A stretch of 64,000 bases of DNA from an uncultured Acetatifactor sp. (GTDB lineage Bacteria > Bacillota > Clostridia > Lachnospirales > Lachnospiraceae): positions 62,001 through 126,000 of the forward strand of contig CANQEH010000001.1 of NCBI GenBank assembly GCA_947594835.1, given 5' to 3'. The first letter of the stretch is position 1; every line of letters starts with the position of its first letter. Below the pieces are notes generated by a model. It saw only the letters and a program-made list of their open reading frames with translations. It did no database searches and had not been told where the DNA came from. This document shows positions 572 through 35,247 of the stretch, piece by piece. Position numbers and translations under genes: made by a program.

Positions 572-2443
572 ATGTTTGACTTTGAAGAGGAATTGAAAAA
601 GCTCCCCAAGGAACCCGGCGTGTATATCATGCGGGATGCAAAGGAAGCGATTCTTTATGTGGGCAAGGCTGTGAACCTTCACAGCCGTGTCCGCTCTTAC
701 TTTCGGGAAAATATCGGCAGGGGGCCGGCCATCGATAAGATGGTGTCCCTGATCGCCCGCTTCGAGTACATTGTCACCGATTCGGAGCTGGAAGCCCTGG
801 TGCTGGAAAACAACCTCATCAAGGAAAATTCTCCCAAATACAACACCCTTTTAAAAGACGACAAGACTTACCCGTATATCAAAGTGACCCTGGGGGAGGA
901 GTATCCCAGGATCCTTTTTTCCCGCGTCATGAAAAAGGACAAGTCCAAATATTATGGCCCTTACACCAGCGCAGCGGCGGTGAAGGATACCATTGAGCTT
1001 CTCAACAAGCTCTACTGTCTGCGCACCTGTAACCGCAGCCTGCCCAGGGATATGGGGCTGGAGCGTCCCTGCTTAAACTATCACATCAAGCAATGCCTGG
1101 CGCCCTGCCAGGGATATGTGTCCAAAGAGCAGTACCGGGAGCAGGTAGACAAGGCGCTGGAATTTTTAAACGGCAACTATAACATGATTTTAAAGGAACT
1201 GGAGACCAAGATGAAATGTGCGGCGGAGGCCCTTGATTTTGAAGCCGCCGCAGGCTACCGGGATCTGTACAACAGCGTAAAAAGCGTCTCCCAGAAGCAG
1301 AAAATCACGGACAGCGACGGGGAGGACAAGGACGTGATCGCCCTGTACCGGGAGGAGACAGAGGCGGTGGTCCAGGTCTTCTTTGTGCGGGGCGGGAAAC
1401 TGATCGGCAGGGAACACTATTATATGACTCATGTGTCGGAAAACGACGATAGTGTCATATTACAGGACTTTGTGAAGCAGTTTTACGCTGGGACGCCCTT
1501 TATCCCGCGGGAACTGATGCTGCAGCGGGAGATCGAGGACAGTGCGCTGATCGAAAAGTGGCTGTCGGAGCGAAAGGGCGCAAGGGTCTATCTGCGGGTG
1601 CCCAAGATCGGCGCCAAAGAGAAGCTGGTAGAGCTGGCGGCGCAGAACGCCAGGCACATTCTGGAACAGGACAGAGAGCGGCTCAAACGGGAGGAGGGCA
1701 GAACCATCGGCGCGGTCAAGGAGATTGCGGCGCTGCTTGGGCTTTCCGGCATCCAGCGCATGGAAGCCTATGACATTTCCAACATCAACGGGTTTGAGAA
1801 CGTGGGTTCCATGGTGGTGTTTGAGAAGGGCAAGCCTAAGCCCAGCGACTACAGGAAGTTCCGGATCCGCACCGTGTCGGGGCCCGACGACTACGCCTGC
1901 ATGAGGGAGGTGCTGACCAGACGCTTCCGCCATGGCATGGAGGAAAGCCGGGAACTGGAGGAAAAGGAGCTGGATCAGGAATATGGGAGCTTTACCCGGT
2001 TTCCCGACCTTTTGATGATGGACGGCGGCAGGGGGCAGGTGAATATCGCCCTGTCCGTGCTGGAGGAGCTGAAACTCCAGATTCCCGTCTGCGGTATGGT
2101 GAAGGACGATTTCCACCGCACCAGGGGATTGTATTTCAACAACGTGGAGGTGCCTATCGACACCCATTCCGAGGGCTTCCGGCTGATCACCAGGATCCAG
2201 GACGAGGCCCACCGATTTGCCATCGAGTACCACCGCTCCCTGCGCAGCAAGGCCCAGGTGAAGTCTGTGCTGGACGACATCCCGGGCGTGGGGCCTGCCC
2301 GGCGCAAGGCCCTGATGCGGCATTTTAAGTCGATCCAGGAGATAAAAAACGCCTCGGTGGAGGAACTGGCGTCCCTGCCGGAGGTAAACAGGCGGGCGGC
2401 TGAGGAGATTTACCAGTATTTCAGGGGGCAAAACCCGGAATAA
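572..2443 (+). CDS. uvrC: Excinuclease ABC subunit UvrC
   Basis: N-terminal GIY-YIG ([22 protein letters not shown]), UVR motif region, C-terminal HhH ([18 protein letters not shown]). Confidence 0.97.
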
Positions 2444-2549
2444 ATTTACTTTACAGAAGTCTCCGCTTGCGATAAAATCAGAGATGGAAAATCGGAGGCA
2501 TTTTTTGCCGGTGATACGTGCGCCGCAGACGGCAGAATGAGAGGAAACT

Positions 2550-3497
2550 ATGGCAAGCATCTCTTTGAAACAGCTGATCGAAAAAATGAAGCTGGAGATC
2601 CTGACGCCCGAAATTGACATGAAGGGGATCCGCATCACACAGCCGGACATCAACCGTCCCGCCCTCCAGCTGACCGGGTATTTCGAGCATTTTGAATCCA
2701 CCCGGATCCAGGTGGTGGGATTTGTGGAATACACCTATCTGGAGAGCTTAAGCGACGAGCGCAAGCGTCAGGTGTACGATGAGCTGATGAGCTATAACGT
2801 TCCCGCCATCGTGTTCTGCCGGGAACTGCAGCCGGATCCCATTTTTATCGAGACGGCCATTGCCCACAAAGTGCCTGTGCTGTCCACCAAAAAAACCACC
2901 TCTGCGTTTATGGCAGAGATCATCCGCTGGCTGAATGTCAAGCTGGCTCCCTGCATCTCCGTCCACGGCGTGCTGGTGGACGTATACGGCGAAGGAGTGC
3001 TGATCACCGGGGAGAGCGGCATCGGTAAATCCGAGGCAGCCCTGGAGCTGGTCAAGAGGGGGCACCGCCTGGTGACGGACGACGTGGTGGAGCTGCGCAG
3101 GGTCAGCGACGACACGCTGGTGGGCACCGCTCCGGATGTGACAAAGCATCTGATCGAGTTGAGAGGCATCGGCATTGTGGATATCAAGGCGCTGTTCGGC
3201 GCGTCTTCCGTCAAGGATACCCAGACCGTGGATCTGGTGATCCGCCTGGAGGACTGGGACAAGGACAAGGAGTACGACAGGCTGGGGCTGGAGGAAAATT
3301 ATACGGAATATCTGGGAAATAAGGTGGTCTGCCACAACATCCCCATCCGCCCAGGCCGCAACCTGGCCATCATCTGCGAGTCCGCCGCAGTCAACCACCG
3401 TCAGAAGAAGATGGGGTACAATGCGGCCCAGGAGCTCTACACCCGCGTACAGAATTCGCTGGCCAGAAAGAGGGAAGAGGAAGAGGACGAGGACTAA
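2550..3497 (+). CDS. hprK: HPr kinase/phosphorylase
   Basis: Walker A GESGIGKSEAALELVKRGHRLVTDD, typical HprK signature. Confidence 0.96.
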   Translation: MASISLKQLIEKMKLEILTPEIDMKGIRITQPDINRPALQLTGYFEHFESTRIQVVGFVEYTYLESLSDERKRQVYDELMSYNVPAIVFCRELQPDPIFIETAIAHKVPVLSTKKTTSAFMAEIIRWLNVKLAPCISVHGVLVDVYGEGVLITGESGIGKSEAALELVKRGHRLVTDDVVELRRVSDDTLVGTAPDVTKHLIELRGIGIVDIKALFGASSVKDTQTVDLVIRLEDWDKDKEYDRLGLEENYTEYLGNKVVCHNIPIRPGRNLAIICESAAVNHRQKKMGYNAAQELYTRVQNSLARKREEEEDED

Positions 3498-3575
3498 AGC
3501 GGAAAACGTGGTAAGCTGCCGCAAAGGGCGGCGGGTGAAGTTTGAAAGCAAACACTCAAAAAGGAGACGGCAGGG

Positions 3576-4544
3576 ATGGGAAAAGTTGCGTTTGGTATAG
3601 ACGTGGGAGGAACCACTGTAAAGCTGGGACTGTTTGACGGGACGGGATGTCTTCTGGAAAAATGGGAGATTCCCACGGTGCGGGACAACGGGGGGGAGAA
3701 GATCCTGCCCCATGTGGCGGAGAGCATCCTGGGGAAAATGCGGGAAAAGCAGATTGCAGAGGAAGACGTGGCGGGCATCGGCATCGGGGTTCCCGGCGCC
3801 GTGGACGAAGACGGAATGCTGGTGAGCGGCGCGGTGAATCTGGGCTGGAAAGCTTTTCACATACCGGAGGCCCTTGGCGCATATATTAACGTAGAGATCA
3901 AAGCGGCAAACGACGCAAACGTGGCAGCCCTCGGAGAGATGTGGAAGGGCGGCGGCGCAGGCTGTCACAGCATGGTGGCTGTGACGCTGGGAACCGGCGT
4001 GGGCGGCGGCATTATCATAAATGGAAAGATACTCACCGGAGCCACCGGGGCTGCCGGGGAGATCGGCCATATCCACATAGAGGATGAGGAGACGCAGCTC
4101 TGCGGCTGTCAGAACAGGGGATGCCTGGAGCAGTATGCCTCCGCCACGGGGATCGTGCGGCTGGCAAAGAAAAGGCTGGCCCAGGACGATACGCCCAGCC
4201 TGCTGCGGCAGGGCGAAGTCTCCGCCAAGACGGTGTTTGATGCGGTGAAGGCAGGCGACGGGGTGGCGATAGAGATTGCAGAGCGCTTTGGCGAGTATCT
4301 GGGCAAGGGGCTGGCGGCGGTGGCCTGTGTGGTAAATCCTGAGATCTTTGTCATCGGCGGCGGAGTTTCCAAGGCAGGAGAGATTTTGTTTGATTATATT
4401 GTTCCAAAGTTCCGGGAATATGCGTTTCCGGCCTGCAGAGACGCCCAGTTTGCGCTGGCTACCCTGGGGAATGACGCAGGGATCTACGGGGCGGCGGGAC
4501 TGATTTTGGCGGGAGGCGCGGATGATCAGCAGAGCAGTCGTTGA
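3576..4544 (+). CDS. ROK family glucokinase
   Basis: FGIDVGGTTVKLGLF, LGTGVGGGIIINGKI, CGCQNRGCLEQYAS ROK Cys motif. Confidence 0.93.
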   Translation: MGKVAFGIDVGGTTVKLGLFDGTGCLLEKWEIPTVRDNGGEKILPHVAESILGKMREKQIAEEDVAGIGIGVPGAVDEDGMLVSGAVNLGWKAFHIPEALGAYINVEIKAANDANVAALGEMWKGGGAGCHSMVAVTLGTGVGGGIIINGKILTGATGAAGEIGHIHIEDEETQLCGCQNRGCLEQYASATGIVRLAKKRLAQDDTPSLLRQGEVSAKTVFDAVKAGDGVAIEIAERFGEYLGKGLAAVACVVNPEIFVIGGGVSKAGEILFDYIVPKFREYAFPACRDAQFALATLGNDAGIYGAAGLILAGGADDQQSSR

Positions 4545-24231: not shown

Positions 24232-24945
24232 TCAGGAATGATTCATATCTTCTATTTCCTCAGAAATAGCAGTCACAATCTTTTCTATATCACTAATGTA
24301 TGTTTCAACATCTTCACGTTTAATATCTAATTTTTGACCGGTTTCATGCAGACAATCAGCTTGGTGGGCAATCTGGTTTCTCCGCCTGAACAAAGCGTTT
24401 AGCGTATTTTTCAATTTGTCCTTCGTCGGTGTCGTTGAACCTTGCGTATGAAAAGCCCTATCTGCAACACTTTGCCATTTTACACCGATAAGATTCAATT
24501 GGCCAATCACGGCATCGGCGCTCATAAACGTATCTTCCGCATAGGAATCATTTACAATATCCAAAAACCAGTTTTCCTGTTCCGGGTTTCTGAGGACATC
24601 TGAAATCTCACCTAAACGGATTGTGAAATTGTCATATCGTTCTGTCTTTTCCCAAACGCCTTGAAATATTTGTACCATGCCATATTTTGTCGCTTCATGA
24701 ATAAAGAAGTCCAGAGCACTATCAAGAAAGACAATTTGAGATCTTAAAATATCCTTATACTGCAAATTCTCTTCGGCTTTTAGTTTTTCAACCAATTCAA
24801 ATTGGGACTTGATAGATAATAAATTGTCTGCAAAGCGATTTTTGATGGCTGACAGTTCAAATGGTATGGTTCGATTAGGACGTCTATTACGTGTACCGAC
24901 ACTTCTAGGTGTAAGTTCAAGATTTCTTTCTTCCGATTGAGGCAT
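24232..24945 (-). CDS. HEPN-type putative RNase/toxin (RiboL-PSP-HEPN / MAE_28990-like), partner of adjacent ATPase
   Basis: C-terminal ALFRRRNQIAHQADCLHETG contains RX4H (RNQIAH) HEPN motif; start codon overlaps the ATPase stop (TAATG). Confidence 0.75.
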   Translation of the reverse strand: MPQSEERNLELTPRSVGTRNRRPNRTIPFELSAIKNRFADNLLSIKSQFELVEKLKAEENLQYKDILRSQIVFLDSALDFFIHEATKYGMVQIFQGVWEKTERYDNFTIRLGEISDVLRNPEQENWFLDIVNDSYAEDTFMSADAVIGQLNLIGVKWQSVADRAFHTQGSTTPTKDKLKNTLNALFRRRNQIAHQADCLHETGQKLDIKREDVETYISDIEKIVTAISEEIEDMNHS

Positions 24946-26195
24946 TAAAATCCCTCCTCTGCAGGAAATACCAAAGGATTATGAAGAAAAGGAATCGCGC
25001 CATATTTTCCGTTCATGTATCCTTTGTTGATATTTTCATCTTTTCTTACATTTCTTAACTCTGCCAATGAATACAGATCGGTCGCCCTATCGTCATTCAG
25101 TTCAGTGAACCAAATTTGATCCCTTCTAAACGTATTTAAATCCAACAAATTGGTATCATGCGTACTAAAAATAAGCTGGGCCTTAGAATTCGGTTTTCCA
25201 TACATAATCAGTCTTAATATTTCTTTTACAATATAGGGATGTAAACTTGTCTCCAGTTCATCCCAAATCAAAACCTTATCTTTCAGAATAATATCTATAA
25301 TCGGCCCGAATACTTCAAATAATTTCTGCACACCTTTAGATTCTTCATTTAAGTTTACAGAGAACATACCATAATCTATGTTTGCTTCTGACCTTGTTAC
25401 TTCTTTTACCTGTGCAAAAAAAGGTTTTATTTCCTCTGGTATGTGTTCGGGAATCAATTCCGGGGACATCTGCGTTTTCTCATATTTAGTATCTATGTTT
25501 TGAATAGGTGTATCAACAGATTTCATAAAATCAATAAATATCTTTTTTAATTTAGGATCTTTGGTAAATCTTTCAATAGAATATTCCAGCCAATTGTTGA
25601 TTTCTAAGGGCAGCGGATAAAAAATAAGATCTTCCTTAAAGAATAAAAAAACTAATTCTGCTTCTTTGACTGCGGAGTAATTTGCAGAAACAGATAGAAA
25701 TAATTTATTGGGTTTCATAAAATTTAATATTGCTTCAAAATGTTTTTTGAATTTATCGCCAAAGGATATTTCACTTATATTCCTATCAAAAATCTTTGCC
25801 TGCTTTCCGTTCGGAAAATAGTAAAGATATTCAGATATAATCTGCTCCGATGTATAAGACAGGCCGTAAGCATAACGTACATCTTCTTTCACGAATTGGA
25901 TCGCATATGTTGTGGGAGTATCTGGCTTTGCAAGCTTATGCGGAATCTGTCTGATTTTGTCACCCGGTTGATGATTGTTGCTATTACAAACTAAAAGTTT
26001 TAAAAAGGATAATGAATCTAAAAAGCTCGTCTTTCCAGAACCATTTGCGCCATAGATTGCTGCTGTTTTCGTAATAAGAGTCCCTTTGTAATCTATCAGG
26101 AGTTTTTCAAAAGAATTATCCTTTGAGGCAAGCATGGAAAATGTCACTTTTTCTTTGATTGAACGGAAATTTTCACAAGTATATTCCAAAAGCAT
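24945..26195 (-). CDS. AAA family ATPase (COG1106/AAA_15-AAA_21-like, SMC/ABC-type)
   Basis: ENFRSIKEKVTFSMLAS; Walker A IYGANGSGKTSFLDSL; Walker B VLIWDELETSLHP; LIFSTHDTNLLD. Confidence 0.88.
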   Translation of the reverse strand: MLLEYTCENFRSIKEKVTFSMLASKDNSFEKLLIDYKGTLITKTAAIYGANGSGKTSFLDSLSFLKLLVCNSNNHQPGDKIRQIPHKLAKPDTPTTYAIQFVKEDVRYAYGLSYTSEQIISEYLYYFPNGKQAKIFDRNISEISFGDKFKKHFEAILNFMKPNKLFLSVSANYSAVKEAELVFLFFKEDLIFYPLPLEINNWLEYSIERFTKDPKLKKIFIDFMKSVDTPIQNIDTKYEKTQMSPELIPEHIPEEIKPFFAQVKEVTRSEANIDYGMFSVNLNEESKGVQKLFEVFGPIIDIILKDKVLIWDELETSLHPYIVKEILRLIMYGKPNSKAQLIFSTHDTNLLDLNTFRRDQIWFTELNDDRATDLYSLAELRNVRKDENINKGYMNGKYGAIPFLHNPLVFPAEEGF

Positions 26196-26437: not shown

Positions 26438-26455
26438 GGAAACAAAAATGTTTCT
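26438..26455. promoter_or_regulatory. Putative operator palindrome copy 1: GGAAAC-AAAAAT-GTTTCT
   Basis: Matches 28684..28701 with same 6-nt spacer; upstream of the small peptide ORF. Confidence 0.55.
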
Positions 26456-26532: not shown

Positions 26533-26679
26533 ATGAAAAAGAAATTTTGGAACCATCTCAAAAGGATCACGGCGGGTGTGATGGCGGCAGCTCTCCTGTT
26601 TACGGCGGGGTATCAGGGGAGCAGGGAACCTATGGCCTCGACGTGCGAGGAGGAGGAAACACAGCCTCATAGAACCTAA
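26533..26679 (+). CDS. 48-aa putative secreted signalling pre-peptide (not in ORF track)
   Basis: MKKKFWNHLKRITAGVMAAALLFTAGYQGSREPMASTCEEEETQPHRT; strong SD (gaggagggtaagagg); basic N-terminus plus hydrophobic core; tail-to-tail with regulator gene. Confidence 0.65.
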   Translation: MKKKFWNHLKRITAGVMAAALLFTAGYQGSREPMASTCEEEETQPHRT

Positions 26680-28616
26680 TCTTCTAATAAAATATTAAAA
26701 TTCGCCTCAAAAGCCCTTTTTAAGATTGCGGCGCTACTGTCTTGGTTCATTAAGCCTTTTGCGCGGCAACAGTAAACGGCATACAGGGTAGCAGCATCAA
26801 ACTGCATACATTCCCCCAAAGCTTGACAATAATAAAATAGGTAGGAACCATATGTATCTATGTTATAACACATGAGATTAAACGCTTTACAAAATTGCTT
26901 TTGTAATTCCAAAACGGCGTTGTATTGTCTTTGGATGTAAAGTGTGTGGCAATAGGCTTTCAATGTATGCGGGTAAACTTGTGCTTGTAACATGATACTG
27001 GGACATACTTTGGCTATATACGCTGTTATCTGGTGGTAATAAAGACTACACAAATAGGAATCATCTGTCTTGCGGTAGGCATCCGCCAGACAGTTCAAGA
27101 TAGACAATTCCTCCCAGGATAGCCGACAGGTCATAATTTCATGGATATCAAAATCTGGAAGGGTGTAGTGCAAAGCTTTCTTCAATCCAGATATTCTGTG
27201 GGAAGGAGAACGGTTTTTCAATGCTTTGACAACCAAAAAGTCCTGATAGTAAAGTACATCTTTTTCATCAACCAGCCGCTCCATTTCTTGAAAATAGTTT
27301 TCTTGCATTTTTGAGGACAGATTTTGTATATGTATCAATTGAAACTTCAAGTCATTCAGTCGAGATTCTCTTTCGTTTCCCCAAAAGGTAAAAATCCGCT
27401 CGGATATGCCGAGGCGCTGTAAAAGAGCCTCCGTAAGCGCAATATCCGGCTGCAGGGAGCCGTTTTCAATTTTGGAGAGCTTTGACTTACCGCAGAGCCC
27501 ATGGCAGACAATGTCCATGGAGAGGTTTTGTTCAGTCCGAAGGTCGTGTAACAGCATTCCCAGGGTATAGATGTCCGGGGAATCGGCGTTAAAGATACCG
27601 TTGGAAAAATGCCCCGTATCCATGATTTCTTTTACGGGATACGTTTTGGAATCTATTTCCGGCATTTGCCGCATATAGTCAGAGACAGGGAAATCCGTAT
27701 GCCGGGACAGGTGCTCCCGGCATACATTGGCATAATTGCTTTTCACAGCGTGGGCTGTGTAGAAAACATTTTTGATATGTTCTGCTGCCTTTGGGGTATC
27801 ACCCAGATGATGCAGGCCAAGCCCCATTAAAAAGGTCAGCTCCAAAAGAAGCGATAGATTCCAGTACAGCGCCGTTGCGCTGCGGTATCTATCGGTAGTC
27901 TCTACTGCAGATAGGCAGTCCCCTGTGCCCAGCAAATACTTTGCATAGACCACGGCGTCCTCCGCCTGCATCCGCTCTTTTTCCAGACTGGAAAACTTGC
28001 TGTCTGCAAGATAAGCCTCTATCTGCGTATGAATTGCCAGACAGGTATCACGCTGTCCCAGGTAGAGCGCCTCCTGGGCCAGGGCGGTCAAAATCTGGAT
28101 CTCATTTTGAGACAAAAGAAGCGCCCGGAAATCAAAGAGATCGATATCGGGGCGCGAAATATGCAGGGCGTTTAACAGGACATGATAATTCCGGGCGTGG
28201 TCGCACTGATAGGAAAGAAACTGGAGCCTGCCGTGTAAAAGCAGCCATTCCTGATAATATAGTTTATTGTCCGCCCAGCCGTATGTTTCAAGCTTCTCCA
28301 GCTCTTCCCACGCGGGGGCAAGCTGCCAGGCGTCCAGATGAAAGCGGGCAAGCTTTAAGGCGTAAAAGCAGTCGAAGTCACTGCGGCTGGCGAAAATCGG
28401 ATATCTTTCACAGGGCGCACCAGCGCGCTCCATCAGCGCCTGAAAGGTAGCGGGGCTGACGCCTGCGGCGCCGGTTTCTATCCGGGAAAGCGCCTGGATG
28501 GTACAGATGCCCTCCGACATCTGCTCCTGGGTCAGACCGGCGGCTGACCGGGCTTCTCTGATGGCATCTTTAGCGCTCCTTACACTCATAAGGCCTCCAT
28601 TGTGACTGAAAAACAA
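26676..28616 (-). CDS. Transcriptional regulator with two XRE HTH domains and TPR-like helical repeats (RRNPP/PlcR-Rgg-like architecture)
   Basis: HTH 1 IREARSAAGLTQEQMSEGICTIQALSRIETGAAGVSPATFQALMERAG; HTH 2 LHDLRTEQNLSMDIVCHGLCGKSKLSKIENGSLQPDIALTEALLQRLG; helical repeats. Confidence 0.82.
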   Translation of the reverse strand: MFFSHNGGLMSVRSAKDAIREARSAAGLTQEQMSEGICTIQALSRIETGAAGVSPATFQALMERAGAPCERYPIFASRSDFDCFYALKLARFHLDAWQLAPAWEELEKLETYGWADNKLYYQEWLLLHGRLQFLSYQCDHARNYHVLLNALHISRPDIDLFDFRALLLSQNEIQILTALAQEALYLGQRDTCLAIHTQIEAYLADSKFSSLEKERMQAEDAVVYAKYLLGTGDCLSAVETTDRYRSATALYWNLSLLLELTFLMGLGLHHLGDTPKAAEHIKNVFYTAHAVKSNYANVCREHLSRHTDFPVSDYMRQMPEIDSKTYPVKEIMDTGHFSNGIFNADSPDIYTLGMLLHDLRTEQNLSMDIVCHGLCGKSKLSKIENGSLQPDIALTEALLQRLGISERIFTFWGNERESRLNDLKFQLIHIQNLSSKMQENYFQEMERLVDEKDVLYYQDFLVVKALKNRSPSHRISGLKKALHYTLPDFDIHEIMTCRLSWEELSILNCLADAYRKTDDSYLCSLYYHQITAYIAKVCPSIMLQAQVYPHTLKAYCHTLYIQRQYNAVLELQKQFCKAFNLMCYNIDTYGSYLFYYCQALGECMQFDAATLYAVYCCRAKGLMNQDSSAAILKRAFEANFNILLED

Positions 28617-28683: not shown

Positions 28684-28701
28684 GGAAACTTTTTCGTTTC
28701 C
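28684..28701. promoter_or_regulatory. Putative operator palindrome copy 2: GGAAAC-TTTTTC-GTTTCC
   Basis: Perfect 6-bp arms; between divergent regulator and M16 operon. Confidence 0.6.
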
Positions 28702-28774: not shown

Positions 28775-30043
28775 GTGTATGAATTGCTAAATGCCTATCT
28801 GGGAAATGGGCTGCGTGTGATCCTTCATAAAATAGCAGACGCCAGAACCATATCCTGCGGTCTATGGGTCAGACAGGGAAGCAGTTATGAGACAGACGGC
28901 GATAATGGACTGTCTCATCTGGCCGAACATCTTTTGCTGAATCCAGAGACGGCCAACAACAGAGAATATACAGACCTGATTGGGAAGGCTGTATCGTGTG
29001 GGGTCATCTATAATGCTGCAACGACAAAGGAGTACACTTGCTTCCATTTTACGGGGATGGCAAACGCGTTGGATGTGTGCCTTTCCAGCCTGGCGTGTAT
29101 CGCCATGGGAAACAGGGATTTTCCCGTAGAACGATTTGAAAACGAGAAGAAAGTAGTTTTGCAGGAAGCCACGGGGTATTATTCTTCCTTTCAGCAGATC
29201 AAGGAACGTACAAGTCAGGCGATCTGGGGAAATACGGGAACGGGAAGGATTATCATGGGGGATATACGGAGTATATCGAATGCAACCCCGGGCCAGATCG
29301 AAGAGATTCTGGGGAAAGCGTATCATCCTTCCAATGCCATCGTGGTTGTGATCGGTAATATTGATTATACAGAGACCTTGAAGATGATAGAAAATAAATT
29401 TCACGGGTGGCGTCATAAGCGCGATGCGAATGGCGAGGAGGTAGTAGAAAGTGAACCGGGAATCTATGTGAATCATGGAAGCGGAGCCAGCACGGTATTT
29501 TCAGTGGGTTTTCGCGCGCCTGCTTACAGCGAGAGAAATCGGCCAGCTGTAGAAATGATGGCCCGGATCCTTGGCCAGAGCGGTCTGCAGTCAAGAATGA
29601 CGAAAGAAATTAGAATGAGAAGGGGACTGGCGTATACGCTGGGCAGTTTTTCCAGCTTCTACAAAAATCGTGGCACCCTGGGATTTATGGTGGTCTGTGA
29701 AAATGAGAAGGCCGTCGACGCGGCATCTGTTCTCATGGACGTGTTGAACGAGGCAAAGACAAAAGGCTTTACCGAGGAGGAGATCGAAAGAGAAAAAAAT
29801 ACGATGGAAACAGCCCTTTTGCTGTCGGTGGACAATATCACAGAGCATCTTCGACATATTGGGAAATGCAGCATAATGGGCCATAGCTTTTATATCGAAC
29901 AGGAATTGAGCGCTGTCCGGGATATCTGTAGGGAAGACGTGGCACGGATGGCGGATGAACTCCTGCGTGACAGCAATATGGGCTTGGCGGTGATTGGCCA
30001 GTGTAATACGGATAAATTATTTGAAGTAGTAGATCTTGGATAA
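28775..30043 (+). CDS. M16 family metallopeptidase (insulinase/PqqF-like), single subunit
   Basis: Zinc motif HLAEH (HXXEH) in GDNGLSHLAEHLLLNPE; M16 fold sequence; GTG start with gggggag SD. Confidence 0.85.
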   Translation: MYELLNAYLGNGLRVILHKIADARTISCGLWVRQGSSYETDGDNGLSHLAEHLLLNPETANNREYTDLIGKAVSCGVIYNAATTKEYTCFHFTGMANALDVCLSSLACIAMGNRDFPVERFENEKKVVLQEATGYYSSFQQIKERTSQAIWGNTGTGRIIMGDIRSISNATPGQIEEILGKAYHPSNAIVVVIGNIDYTETLKMIENKFHGWRHKRDANGEEVVESEPGIYVNHGSGASTVFSVGFRAPAYSERNRPAVEMMARILGQSGLQSRMTKEIRMRRGLAYTLGSFSSFYKNRGTLGFMVVCENEKAVDAASVLMDVLNEAKTKGFTEEEIEREKNTMETALLLSVDNITEHLRHIGKCSIMGHSFYIEQELSAVRDICREDVARMADELLRDSNMGLAVIGQCNTDKLFEVVDLG

Positions 30044-30629
30044 GGGGGTGAATCGCGTGGCGGATATGGCCTGCATTTACGAAATGAATATGCTCGCAGA
30101 AAACGAACAGCTGGAACAGGACATCTTGTCGGGGCGCGGTATGGACATCTTGTTTTGCCTGATGGATCGTGTGTCTACAAGGCGGGAAATTGCAGAACGT
30201 CTTAACATACCGGGTTATTCTGTCAACCTGTATCTGCAGCGGCTTGTCAAAGCGGGGCTGGTGCGGGAAGAAACACGGATCGGCAACGGCCAGGCAGAGC
30301 GGCGCTATCAATTGGTTGCAGAACGTCTTGAAATCGTCAATCGGATGCAGGAAAATCCTTTGACAGACACGGAAGAAAAACAAAAATTAGAACTTTCCGC
30401 CAGACAGTTTTCTTTGATGACGCGAAATGCGATCATGAGTGCAAAGCAGTATGAGGGATTGCCGCATAAAATCAAAGCCTACTTTATGAAAGCCAAAAGG
30501 GAAGATATGGTGAGATTCAGGGAGGAGATCGACCGGCTGTTTGAAAAATACCGGGATATGGAGGACCCGGAAGCAACAGAAACTTACAGCTTGTTTTCGG
30601 TGATGGCGCCGTATGAGGTGGAGAGGTAA
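30036..30629 (+). CDS. Winged-helix (ArsR/MarR-like) regulator; start uncertain
   Basis: MDRVSTRREIAERLNIPGYSVNLYLQRLVKAGLVREETRIGNGQAERRYQL. Confidence 0.65.
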   Translation: MDKGVNRVADMACIYEMNMLAENEQLEQDILSGRGMDILFCLMDRVSTRREIAERLNIPGYSVNLYLQRLVKAGLVREETRIGNGQAERRYQLVAERLEIVNRMQENPLTDTEEKQKLELSARQFSLMTRNAIMSAKQYEGLPHKIKAYFMKAKREDMVRFREEIDRLFEKYRDMEDPEATETYSLFSVMAPYEVER

Positions 30630-30740
30630 AGCAATAAATGTTGTTTAGGCATAAACTTTAAATCACGGGTGTGCGGCAGCTGCGCGTGAATCGGCGCAGA
30701 CTCGTCATGTGCAAAGCCAAGCGCGGGAATGGAGGAAAGC

Positions 30741-30875
30741 ATGAAGGGAAAAGAAATACGACAGAGCAATGAAGAAATTCAGGAAATTCAGAAAACAGAA
30801 ATAGTGTTGGCGCAGGAGGAAGAAAATCCCGGAGTCGGCATTGAAATCGTTATTGGCCCGGATAGTCTGGGTTGA
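30741..30875 (+). CDS. 44-aa peptide, candidate RiPP precursor A (not in ORF track)
   Basis: MKGKEIRQSNEEIQEIQKTEIVLAQEEENPGVGIEIVIGPDSLG; SD ggaggaaagc; immediately upstream of precursor B and a radical SAM gene. Confidence 0.55.
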   Translation: MKGKEIRQSNEEIQEIQKTEIVLAQEEENPGVGIEIVIGPDSLG

Positions 30876-30906
30876 TATAAGAAAAAAGAAAGGAAGGAAC
30901 AAAAGC

Positions 30907-31080
30907 ATGGAGAAGAAAATCATGGTTGGTGCGGAGGAACTGCAGGTGCAGGACGGAAGGGTCACGATTCTTTCAGAGGAATTGGCCAGAGCGATACAGG
31001 AGCAGGAGGTCGATCTTGCAGGGGACGAGGAAGCAAATGCCATTGTCAATATACAGTTTAAATGCCAGAATGGAGGCTGA
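30907..31080 (+). CDS. 57-aa peptide, candidate RiPP precursor B
   Basis: MEKKIMVGAEELQVQDGRVTILSEELARAIQEQEVDLAGDEEANAIVNIQFKCQNGG; SD aaaggaagg; acidic leader-like region. Confidence 0.6.
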   Translation: MEKKIMVGAEELQVQDGRVTILSEELARAIQEQEVDLAGDEEANAIVNIQFKCQNGG

Positions 31081-31177
31081 GTGTTGATCCCTTGCTTATT
31101 TTCTTGATCCCGTATTAAATAGGAGTAAGAGTTAGGCGGATCAAAGCACCAGCGGCAGTCGACTAGATTTGGCCGTT

Positions 31178-31366: not shown

Positions 31367-32647
31367 ATGAAGCTATCAAAATACTCTGTGACAGTTTCCA
31401 TAAATGAACAACAGGAAATGATCTACAATACGCGCTCCAGACAATATCTGGTGTACCAAAAGTGTGACGGGGGAAAAATATGGGACTTCTTGTATCATAT
31501 CAACAAGGGTTCCTATGACATAGAAGAAGTAAAATTATTTGAAAAGTTGTTGCGCAAGGGTATTGTTTGCCGGGATAGTGTGGATGAGCTGGAAGAATTG
31601 AGGAGGGAAGAAAATCAACAAAAAAGTGATGATGACACTTTCCGGCTGACTATTTTTGCGACAAATGAGTGCAATTTTCGGTGCGTTTACTGTACCCAAG
31701 AGCATATTGTGCAACACTTGAAGGACAGTGCGGCAGACAGTATTTTAAAATTGATAAATAAAAAAGCATCTGAGTTCAAAAAAATCATTTTATATTGGTT
31801 TGGTGGCGAGCCGTTATTAGAATTAAATCGTATAAAATATGTGATGGAGCAAGGACAGAGGATTTGTGAGCAAAGAAATTGTTGCATTGAGTCCTTCATG
31901 ACAACGAACGGGTATCTGTTGAATGAATCGAGAATCCAGCAGCTGAAAAAACTTGGTCTGTACGGCGTGCAAATCACGATAGATGGAAACAAAGAAACCC
32001 ATAATACAAAAAGGATACTGGCCGGTGGACAAGGAACTTATGAGCAAGTACTGCAAAATCTGATACTGTGTCTAAAGTGTGGGATCCGTGTCATTCTGAG
32101 AATGAATGTGAGCGATGAGAATGCTGCGGACATATCAGAACTCTTGAATAGCATTCCGAAAGAGTATCGCTCTGACGTAATGGTGAGCATTGCTAACATT
32201 TTTCAAAATGAAGAGAAGTCAGATGTCTTTCCGCTGATGAAACAAGTAATGGAAAGCGGGTATCTTATCTATCAAAGACAGAACAGTTACGTTGGATGTA
32301 GTTGTTGCTTTTCTAATTCAGTTACAATCGATACAGATGGTTCTCTCTTGTTGTGCACCCATGCGAAAGAAGGCAGAGTAGGTCATTTGGGTTTTGACGG
32401 CAACGCTGTTATCGAGGAAACGGCAAAAGTCCATCAGATGAAGACGGTATCTGCATTAGACAATCCACAATGCCGGGATTGCATTGAACTTCCCTATTGT
32501 TTGGGGGATTGCAATTTTGCAAGAATCAAGTATAATCAGTGTTGTCTGGGGAAACGGGCAGACGGTATGTCCGTGGAGGAACAGGCACTGCTAGATTATT
32601 ATTATGATGAGTGCAAAGAGAGACTTCTCTTACAGGCGTATGAGTAG
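31367..32647 (+). CDS. Radical SAM/SPASM domain peptide maturase
   Basis: CNFRCVYC (CX3CX2C), FGGEPLL, C-terminal SPASM-like cysteines (CSCC...C, QCRDCIELPYCLGDC). Confidence 0.9.
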   Translation: MKLSKYSVTVSINEQQEMIYNTRSRQYLVYQKCDGGKIWDFLYHINKGSYDIEEVKLFEKLLRKGIVCRDSVDELEELRREENQQKSDDDTFRLTIFATNECNFRCVYCTQEHIVQHLKDSAADSILKLINKKASEFKKIILYWFGGEPLLELNRIKYVMEQGQRICEQRNCCIESFMTTNGYLLNESRIQQLKKLGLYGVQITIDGNKETHNTKRILAGGQGTYEQVLQNLILCLKCGIRVILRMNVSDENAADISELLNSIPKEYRSDVMVSIANIFQNEEKSDVFPLMKQVMESGYLIYQRQNSYVGCSCCFSNSVTIDTDGSLLLCTHAKEGRVGHLGFDGNAVIEETAKVHQMKTVSALDNPQCRDCIELPYCLGDCNFARIKYNQCCLGKRADGMSVEEQALLDYYYDECKERLLLQAYE

Positions 32648-32698: not shown

Positions 32699-34069
32699 AT
32701 GGAAGGACAGAAAAAGATTGGCTATCGGGATATTTTCCGGCAGAAGGAATATATGAAGATGATCGTGGCCGCCATGATCAACCGCTTCGGCGATTCCATA
32801 GACGCCATTGCCTTTACCTGGATCGTCTATGAGATCACGGGAAATGCGGCGTGGTCGGCGTTGATCTATGGACTGAATATTATACCTTCGATCATCGTGA
32901 CTCCCTTTGCAGGCGCCTGGGTGGAGAGGAAGCGCAAGAAGCCCATTATGGTTTTGACCGACCTGGCGCGGGCGGCCTGCGTGGCCTTTGTGGCCACAGG
33001 GTATCTGGCGGGCTTTCTGCGTCCATGGATGCTGATTGTGAATACATTGATCATCTCCACCGTGGAGGCTTTCCGGGGGCCTGCCAACACTGCGCTGACC
33101 CCGATGATCCTGGAGAAAAAATACTATGAGTATGGGATGTCGCTTATGACCACCCTTTCCAGTGCGGTACAGCTGATCGGATTGGCCATGGCGGCGGCAG
33201 TCATTGCGGTGATTGGAAGCGCCGGGGCGCTCTATGTGGATGTGACCACATTTGTCCTGTCTGCACTGATTATTTTGTTTGTGAAGGTGCAGGAGAAAAA
33301 GGCAGAAAGGCAGCCGGAAAAGCGGAAGGAGCAGGCGGCGGGGAAAGCGGAAGAAAGCTACTGGTCTGTCCTTGCATCAGGCTTTCAATATGTGGGGCAG
33401 AATAAGATTGTTATCTTCCTGATTGCTACAATTATTATGTTGAACGCTCTCATAACCCCGCTCAACAGTCTGCAGGCGCCGCTTGCCGACGAAATCCTGC
33501 GGACAGGGGCAGAGGCGCTGTCTGTCATCGGTATTACACTGACTTTAGGGATGATGCTGGGATCCTTTGTCTACCCGATGGTACGGAAACTGCTGAAAGG
33601 GAAGATTCTGTTGTCTTTGGCGGGACTGGGCATCGGCGTATACTATTTGTCCATGGTCGCCGGGCAGCCGCTCTATGACAGCAAGGTATTTCTGTATCTG
33701 TTCATTGCCGTGCTGACCGGGCTGATGGGAGTGATGGTGTCCTTGCTGAACTCCTTCCTCAGCGTGGAGTTTGTCAAGCAGACAGATGAAGCTTATCTGG
33801 CCAGGGTTAATTCGATTCTTTCGGCTTTCAGCTGTGCGGCGTCTCCGCTGGTAGCTTTTATCATCAGCGGCATCGCGGCATTTTGTGACACGCAGGTTAT
33901 CTTTCTGGCGACGGGGATCCTTGCCCTTCTGGCAAGCTTTCCGCTGTTGTTTTCCAGGACGCTGGATATGCTGGATAAAACCCCGGAAGGGGAAGGAGAG
34001 GAGCAGGGATCGGAACCTGCAGCCCGTCAGGAAGAAATTTCTTATATAACGGATGGAGCATACGATTGA
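32699..34069 (+). CDS. MFS transporter
   Basis: MINRFGDSIDAIAFTWIVYEITGNAAWSALIYGLNIIPSIIVTPFAGAWVERKRKKPIM; multi-TM. Confidence 0.87.
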   Translation: MEGQKKIGYRDIFRQKEYMKMIVAAMINRFGDSIDAIAFTWIVYEITGNAAWSALIYGLNIIPSIIVTPFAGAWVERKRKKPIMVLTDLARAACVAFVATGYLAGFLRPWMLIVNTLIISTVEAFRGPANTALTPMILEKKYYEYGMSLMTTLSSAVQLIGLAMAAAVIAVIGSAGALYVDVTTFVLSALIILFVKVQEKKAERQPEKRKEQAAGKAEESYWSVLASGFQYVGQNKIVIFLIATIIMLNALITPLNSLQAPLADEILRTGAEALSVIGITLTLGMMLGSFVYPMVRKLLKGKILLSLAGLGIGVYYLSMVAGQPLYDSKVFLYLFIAVLTGLMGVMVSLLNSFLSVEFVKQTDEAYLARVNSILSAFSCAASPLVAFIISGIAAFCDTQVIFLATGILALLASFPLLFSRTLDMLDKTPEGEGEEQGSEPAARQEEISYITDGAYD

Positions 34070-35247
34070 AAAATTACAGAGAGTTATTCCGCAAAGAGTA
34101 CTTGTTTGTCTATTTGATCTATTTCTGGGTCTTTTTTGCCATCGGGGCATTAGACCAACAGATACCGCTGTTTTTTACGGGGAAGGAAAACGGCCCCCTC
34201 GTCTACGGCATTTTTTTGAGTGCGCTGAGCGCGGCGAACATTGTCATGCCAACGGTGTCCGCCCTGCTGGCAAAGAGGTTTGGCTCGAAAGAAGTCACCT
34301 TGTTCTACTTCGTCATGAGCGCGGCTGTCTCAGGTGTATTGTTTCTGGTCACAAATACCTATGTCATAGCGGTCATTTTTCTGTTAATCAATGTCAGTCA
34401 GCCCGTGTTCAATTTTTCCCTGGGAAGCGCGATCTGCCTTTCCATCGACAATCAGGCAAAGGCGCGGTTTTTTGCCGTCCGGGATGTCTTCCTGTACGGC
34501 TCCATCGCTTTGGGGCTGATGCTGTCGGGCATCCTGGTAAAGAGATACGACGTGAAAATGATCATTGCCGCCTATGGGTTATTTCTGCTTGTCCCATGCG
34601 TCATGTTGTTTTTTGGAAAGAATCCATTCGTCAAGAGGACGGACAGCGAGGACGAGGAGGAAGAAGAGACCGGCCTGAAGGGGATCAAAAAGGCTTTTCA
34701 AAACCGGGAGTTTATCCTGATGCTGGCCGTCAGTTCCTTTTTGTCGGTTTACAGCGCGGTGTACGCATATGTCCCTTTTCTGGCGATTGAGGTCGGTTTA
34801 AATTATTCGGAGGTATTGAACAGTTTCGCCATCGTGACCATGATCAATGTGGTGGTAGCTTTGTTTCTCAGCCATCTGGCAGATGCCACAGATAAGAAAA
34901 TATTTTTCATCATCGATGTGGGATTTGACCTGATTCCCATTTTGATCTTTTTAAATGCCACAAACTATTATCTGTTCATCGCTGCGCTGGTCCTGACTGC
35001 CCTCAAGGATGTGTTTGCGCCGATCACCTTTGCGTACAAATATGAATTGTTCACAGAGGACGGGCAGCTTTTTATTTCCCTTCTGGAATCGATGATGGGC
35101 GTCTTTACGTTTGTGCTGCCCATCGTGATAGGAATTTTGTGGGAACAGATCGGGAAGAATGTGTTCCTCATAGGATTTGCGGCAGTCTTCCTGGCAACGG
35201 TTACGGCCTTTTTCCTGCACGGCAGACCAAAGAAAGCAGAAGGATGA
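34066..35247 (+). CDS. MFS transporter
   Basis: Multi-TM; overlaps the preceding stop by 4 nt (TTGA; TTG start). Confidence 0.82.
   Translation: MKNYRELFRKEYLFVYLIYFWVFFAIGALDQQIPLFFTGKENGPLVYGIFLSALSAANIVMPTVSALLAKRFGSKEVTLFYFVMSAAVSGVLFLVTNTYVIAVIFLLINVSQPVFNFSLGSAICLSIDNQAKARFFAVRDVFLYGSIALGLMLSGILVKRYDVKMIIAAYGLFLLVPCVMLFFGKNPFVKRTDSEDEEEEETGLKGIKKAFQNREFILMLAVSSFLSVYSAVYAYVPFLAIEVGLNYSEVLNSFAIVTMINVVVALFLSHLADATDKKIFFIIDVGFDLIPILIFLNATNYYLFIAALVLTALKDVFAPITFAYKYELFTEDGQLFISLLESMMGVFTFVLPIVIGILWEQIGKNVFLIGFAAVFLATVTAFFLHGRPKKAEG

Follow-up and report, generated by a model that had tools for sequence, protein, structure and literature searches.

The window analysed here is the whole stretch of 64,000 nucleotides from an uncultured Acetatifactor sp. 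(Lachnospiraceae). It contains a cluster with the gene order M16 peptidase - winged-helix protein (wHTH) - A - B - radical SAM (rSAM)/SPASM enzyme - MFS, in which A and B are short open reading frames (ORFs) for putative RiPP precursors. A regulator gene lies to the left of the M16 gene and is divergent from it. The features discussed below are as follows.

26438..26455: second palindrome GGAAACAAAAATGTTTCT, with one mismatch, upstream of the micro-ORF
26533..26679, plus strand: signal-peptide micro-ORF of 48 aa (MKKKFWNHLKRITAGVMAAALLFTAGYQGSREPMASTCEEEETQPHRT), convergent with the regulator gene; proposed pheromone precursor
26676..28589, minus strand: tandem HTH-TPR-HTH-TPR regulator, PlcR-like, 637 aa, with two HTH_31 stretches
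28684..28701: palindrome GGAAACTTTTTCGTTTCC upstream of the M16 operon; candidate operator of the regulator
28775..30043, plus strand: M16 zinc peptidase, 422 aa, HLAEH intact (PF00675/PF05193); proposed leader peptidase
30057..30629, plus strand: wHTH protein, 190 aa (MADMACIYEMNM...), HTH_24/TrmB over cut-off
30741..30875, plus strand: ORF A, putative precursor of 44 aa (MKGKEIRQSNEEIQEIQKTEIVLAQEEENPGVGIEIVIGPDSLG) without Cys, ending ...LAQEEENPGVGIEIVIGPDSLG
30907..31080, plus strand: ORF B, putative precursor of 57 aa starting at ATG 30907, with a conserved leader DGxVxIxSEEL...IQ and a single core Cys
31084..31144, plus strand: stem-loop TTGATCC...GGATCAA between B and the rSAM gene
31367..32647, plus strand: radical SAM/SPASM peptide maturase, 426 aa (PF04055, E 1.8e-19)
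32699..34069, plus strand: MFS exporter, 456 aa (TIGR00900/MFS_3 matches)

The identical gene order is present in two other Lachnospiraceae genera, represented by Falcatimonas sp. MSJ-15 (locus L039) and Lachnospiraceae bacterium G11 (L040). Searching 397 genomes of the same family with the rSAM protein gave two strong matches (E 3.5e-133 and 3e-95, the next being 6e-35), and genome contigs scanned with the M16 alignment gave the same two genomes only. A fourth genome, G760 (locus L046; its reverse complement is L046rc), was recovered by the wHTH profile. There the wHTH gene precedes two A-like ORFs and then two B ORFs; MFS comes next, before a third A-like ORF and the rSAM gene, whose product belongs to a different, nif11/PapB-like subfamily. 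Orthologues of A occupy the equivalent position at L039 6478-6633, L040 6042-6191 and L046rc 1815-1952; those of B lie at L039 6675-6842, L040 6258-6428 and, in two copies, in L046rc.

Among the genomes searched, only these four carry the A/B system. The B profile returned only the three known loci and no other convincing member from the 397 family genomes, and no convincing further member from 79 genomes of the G760 genus; weaker matches in the family genomes (E 1e-3 to 1e-2) sit within long ORFs and were rejected. Genome contigs scanned with rSAM alone yielded no relative, and viral contigs scanned with the wHTH and B alignments no match. Beside other rSAM homologues (~30% identity), small ORFs preceded by an SD were absent or of other kinds, some of them Cys-rich, and none was of the A/B type. 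Across the class, the best other match to the M16 profile reached 2.9e-63, against 2.5e-253 here, and such matches were taken as ordinary M16 peptidases. The rarity and scattered occurrence of the A/B system suggest horizontal transfer or loss. The loci of G812 (L050) and G859 (L051) were rejected as A/B clusters, as they have a distant wHTH and a ryptide-like rSAM but neither A nor B. In these stretches (L050 1897-5539, L051 7951-13529) the distant wHTH-family member is followed by the ryptide-like rSAM, which scores below cut-off for NF040899, by a small ORF MSTFELSPEEFAEMEQNDDVQLSCECIDHTHRRY and by an MFS; L051 also has the tandem regulator, and an inserted transposase-like gene breaks up the stretch.

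The original prediction placed two short ORFs directly upstream of the rSAM gene. Both are present with the sequences it quoted, and they recur between wHTH and rSAM elsewhere. The starts it proposed hold as well: the ATG of A at 30741 has GGAGG upstream (another ATG in frame is found at 30729), and B is read from ATG 30907 and not from TTG 30841, because its homologues of 54-56 aa start there, so that the 79-aa mechanical ORF from TTG 30841 is an artefact. When 16 A-A and B-B pairs were aligned by Smith-Waterman, 15 scored above all 2000 shuffles and the last was equalled by 1 of 2000. Scores were 48-95 for the A-A pairs (shuffled means 26-29) and 75-92 for the B-B pairs (24-26 shuffled), with 249 for the recent duplicate pair of G760. 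Codon change in A and B is at third positions and synonymous, and dN is smaller than dS wherever computable, dS being near saturation; this pattern would indicate coding, as supporting evidence only. No model matched A or B in Pfam and NCBIfam scans, nor their homologues in NCBIfam scans. Restriction to this genome had been named as an outcome that would speak against the two ORFs; they are in fact kept in three other genomes together with rSAM, M16 peptidase and exporter, and in the window, L039 and L040 they both adjoin an rSAM/SPASM enzyme and are conserved with it.

These observations bear on whether the small ORFs could encode conserved peptides with a leader-like or attenuation role in the operon and no enzyme substrates at all. 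They are short and lie upstream of an enzyme gene, and in each of the three syntenic loci B is followed by a hairpin, which is much more stable in L039 and L040 (z -4.8 and -4.7) than in the window (z -1.9). However, the amino-acid sequences of A and B are kept across genera despite synonymous change, the two have a paralogous segment and duplicated copies, and the cluster, like RiPP clusters in general, includes genes for modification, proteolysis and export, which makes an attenuation role highly improbable. The hairpin itself is a candidate attenuator or processing element favouring precursor over enzyme.

A kinship between A and B, raised in the original prediction as a possibility, is supported by comparison of the A profile with the B profile (hhalign, P = 4.7e-5, probability 68%) and by the ungapped alignment of window A with a G760 B copy over 39 residues (score 65 versus 25.5 +/- 4.8; 0 of 1000 shuffles). 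Window A against window B is marginal, 47 of 1000 shuffles scoring equally well; the kinship becomes visible only via the relatives. The segment common to both reads IQ-x-x-x-V-x-[LV]-x-x-[ED]-E-E-[NDA] and spans about 14 residues: the (E/D)EE(N/A) boundary noted earlier is present, as the end of a longer motif.

Conservation by segment, computed ungapped from IQ, bore out the expected leader/core division in B, where the leader is conserved and the core variable (identity 0.46 in the leader, 0.44 in the IQ-box, 0.10 in the core). In A it is reversed (0.13, 0.46 and 0.31, the last a lower bound given the 2-residue insertion before EEED in the G11 peptide): the N-terminus is variable and the C-terminus, of the GIG[YI]EI or GIGYEI type, is conserved, unlike in a classical variable-core precursor. 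Judged from these alignments, B resembles a textbook case of a RiPP precursor, and A resembles a paralogue in which the C-terminal segment GIG[YI]EI is more strongly constrained. In each of the three loci with a window-type rSAM the B core has one Cys, which follows [NQ]F (QFKC, NFC, NFGC); the A cores of these loci and the B copies of G760 have none. In G760 (L046rc 1815-4115) the precursors are multiplied, with three A-like and two B ORFs, and the B cores are Cys-free (HVKIHIEIGS). With its other rSAM subfamily, this set offers a natural comparison for enzyme-core specificity.

The reversed pattern of A, together with the lack of Cys in the C-terminal segment of its orthologues, would suit a reading in which B is the sole rSAM substrate and A a diverged paralogue acting as an intracellular signal, a chaperone or decoy leader, or an immunity peptide. 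The GIGYEIVI-type end of A also resembles the short hydrophobic SHP pheromones of streptococci, e.g. EGIIVIVVG (PMC13361665). We nevertheless think this unlikely: the IQ...EEE[N/D] segment is found in both peptides, which argues for common processing, the A leader is acidic and soluble, unlike an export signal, the micro-ORF beside the regulator, with its signal peptide, is the better pheromone candidate, and the A-like peptides of G760 are both multiplied and diverse. Conversely, A and B could both be modified and act jointly, like two-component sactipeptides such as thuricin CD. Their relatedness and their joint presence in all four genomes speak for such a two-peptide product, but their cores differ greatly in composition, and the window cluster has one rSAM only, where thuricin CD uses two (PMC12093266); we would give joint action about a one-in-three standing at best. 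Our preferred reading is that A and B are two paralogous precursors that very probably yield an undescribed modified peptide.

The rSAM enzyme has its CxxxCxxC motif at C102-C106-C109, and this motif and the SPASM cysteines C311, C314, C330, C369, C372, C378, C382 and C393 are invariant in three orthologues; orthologues are 46% and 38% identical. Its N-terminal strand-helix domain is likely a leader-binding RRE. The best NCBIfam models, TIGR04463, CefB (NF038107) and Clo7bot (TIGR04334), are alike over nearly the full length (E 4e-48 to 3e-45), with 164, 163 and 155 bits against curated cut-offs of 525, 600 and 600. No NCBIfam peptide-maturase cut-off was reached, and because the scores are far below every one of them the chemistry is not readable from homology. 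In contrast to the Cys-rich peptides of these maturases, the window precursors have one or no core Cys and no NCBIfam match. The closest solved structures by profile and fold include CteB, a thioether-forming SCIFF ranthipeptide maturase (5wgg/5why), and TigE (8vpo), which is nearly as close as CteB in fold (model pLDDT 65, from three sequences only); identity to them is only 15-17%, and A and B are unrelated to the six-Cys SCIFF peptide. As a weak first guess, the B product might carry one thioether or similar crosslink via the single Cys in [NQ]F-x(0,1)-C, because one Cys follows [NQ]F in three cores. A has no Cys, so its chemistry, if it is modified, must differ from that of B.

The M16 orthologues are 55-58% identical with HxxEH invariant, and the closest solved structure is the processing protease 3hdi (E 1.3e-44). 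AlbE and AlbF of subtilosin A are M16 peptidases. Like AlbE/AlbF, PttP1/PttP2 and PesP1/PesP2, the window enzyme is linked to a RiPP pathway, but it differs from them in being one catalytically intact M16 gene whose cluster lacks an inactive partner subunit. PttP1/PttP2, of the paenithopeptins, and PesP1/PesP2 are M16 peptidases tied to such pathways (PMC10885120, PMC13060819). The wHTH protein represents a cluster-specific family, known from four loci and two distant members, and is read as a second regulator or possibly a recognition partner. The MFS protein, also found within the L039, L040 and L046 clusters, is proposed to serve export or immunity. A second MFS gene (34066-35247) stands directly 3' of the first and is missing from both syntenic relatives; since it is not kept there, it probably lies outside the core cluster.

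The N- and C-terminal halves of the regulator are homologous (P 5.2e-15), each consisting of an HTH and helical repeats. In Foldseek PlcR (3u3w) is the top match and the only structure under E 1e-3 (E 5.3e-4); in VIA-align it again comes first (Z 16.9, rmsd 3.6 over 213 aa), with Rap, NprR and ComR also listed. Since helical repeats easily reach high Z, the modelled fold match taken alone would be moderate evidence; a sequence comparison also points to PlcR (E 0.0011). As in RRNPP receptors, an N-terminal HTH (HTH_31/HTH_3; HTH parts modelled at low confidence) precedes a TPR-type domain. Its length of 637 aa, the result of tandem duplication, falls outside the 250-500 aa that RRNPP_detector allows such receptors by default (PMC10075063), so a regulator of this type would escape those defaults.

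RRNPP systems are also marked by a small gene, next to the receptor gene, that encodes an exported propeptide. Here this feature is present at 5/5 loci (window, L039, L040, L046rc, L099) as a signal-peptide micro-ORF converging on the 3' end of the regulator gene. At the sixth regulator locus, L051, no micro-ORF was seen at that place, and a signal-peptide-like ORF follows its wHTH instead. Such an ORF arose in 4 of 1000 shuffles of the region at 26533; shuffling put the chance at 0.4-1.2% for each locus and random windows put it at 1.4%, with criteria fixed after the first cases had been seen. In three genomes the 18-bp palindrome GGAAAC-N6-GTTTCC precedes the M16 start by 85-98 bp, exact copies occurring in L039 and L040, and that at 28684 is the only exact match in the 2.76-Mb own assembly. 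The Falcatimonas counterpart of the second palindrome is an exact copy upstream of the micro-ORF (L039 2239-2256). No exact palindrome matched at the G760 regulator locus or the own-genome C10 locus, and a sigma-70 scan gave no excess above shuffles. The own-genome locus L099 (3349-7477, i.e. C10:46348-50476) holds a close regulator paralogue (E 5.8e-193) with its own signal-peptide micro-ORF, adjoining a 46-aa ORF that ends SGSGSSFAHCYGGK and an rSAM nearest to the ACGX system; it is likely a second RiPP cluster, equipped with a control module of this kind.

The system resembles PlcR/PapR of the Bacillus cereus group in its HTH-TPR fold, the small signal-peptide gene beside the regulator and the palindromic site, but the window regulator is about twice as long as PlcR, with two HTH-TPR units. 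Comparable wiring is known from streptococcal RaS-RiPP clusters under Rgg/SHP control (PMC13361665), where a TPR peptide-receptor regulator and a short peptide gene likewise stand beside an rSAM RiPP operon. The window locus differs from these in its tandem 637-aa PlcR-like regulator, a pheromone candidate with a Sec-type signal peptide, an MFS exporter and an undescribed precursor family.

Taken together, we hold with fairly good confidence that this is a radical-SAM RiPP operon under quorum control and that its two precursor peptides are paralogues. Gene order, the conservation and kinship of A and B, catalytic motifs, hairpins, the duplication within the regulator, micro-ORFs and palindromes are all observed here; for pheromone, operator, modification chemistry, M16 cleavage site and MFS export we infer the following course. 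The product of the micro-ORF at 26533 would be secreted, processed to a short pheromone and, after re-entering the cell, bound by one or both TPR halves of the regulator. The regulator, with both HTH domains in one chain, would bind GGAAAC-N6-GTTTCC and, to judge from the placement of the sites, activate the operon and the pheromone gene. Owing to the hairpin after B, both precursors might be produced in excess over the rSAM enzyme, which would hold them via its N-terminal domain and modify the short C-terminal segment after EEE[N/D]; B would perhaps receive the crosslink guessed at above, and A something else or nothing. Cleavage by the M16 peptidase near IQxxxVxLxxEEE[N/D] may then free the product of its leader, and the MFS protein may export it.

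A bolder claim, to which we give slightly less than even weight, is that the locus represents an undescribed rSAM RiPP class, with paired paralogous Cys-poor precursors carrying the IQxxxVxLxxEEE[N/D] processing segment, combined with a new RRNPP type made up of a fused-dimer (tandem PlcR) receptor, a PapR-like pheromone and GGAAAC-N6-GTTTCC, as a module that recurs beside other Lachnospiraceae rSAM clusters. Three kinds of RiPP cluster are each already known: those with rSAM enzymes, those containing M16 peptidases and those controlled by an RRNPP system. Neither the precursor family nor the tandem receptor seems to have been described, as far as the searched tools and papers show, and our literature search found no paper on RRNPP together with Lachnospiraceae. 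This product type has likely been overlooked so far, because it matches no curated family and gene callers readily miss small ORFs or assign them a wrong start, and a group of Lachnospiraceae quorum-sensing systems may have been overlooked for the length of the regulator. The locus joins a pheromone candidate, a candidate operator and a putative peptide product in one testable link.

Two further stretches of the window may be mentioned. On the minus strand at 24232-26195, adjoining the regulator, an AAA-type ATPase-like ORF (416 aa) and a 237-aa partner, which could be a mobile or defence-type pair, lie in a stretch of low GC (about 0.30-0.38). At 36277-37179 a 300-aa ORF has about six EGRE repeats near its C-terminus, with several frames open.
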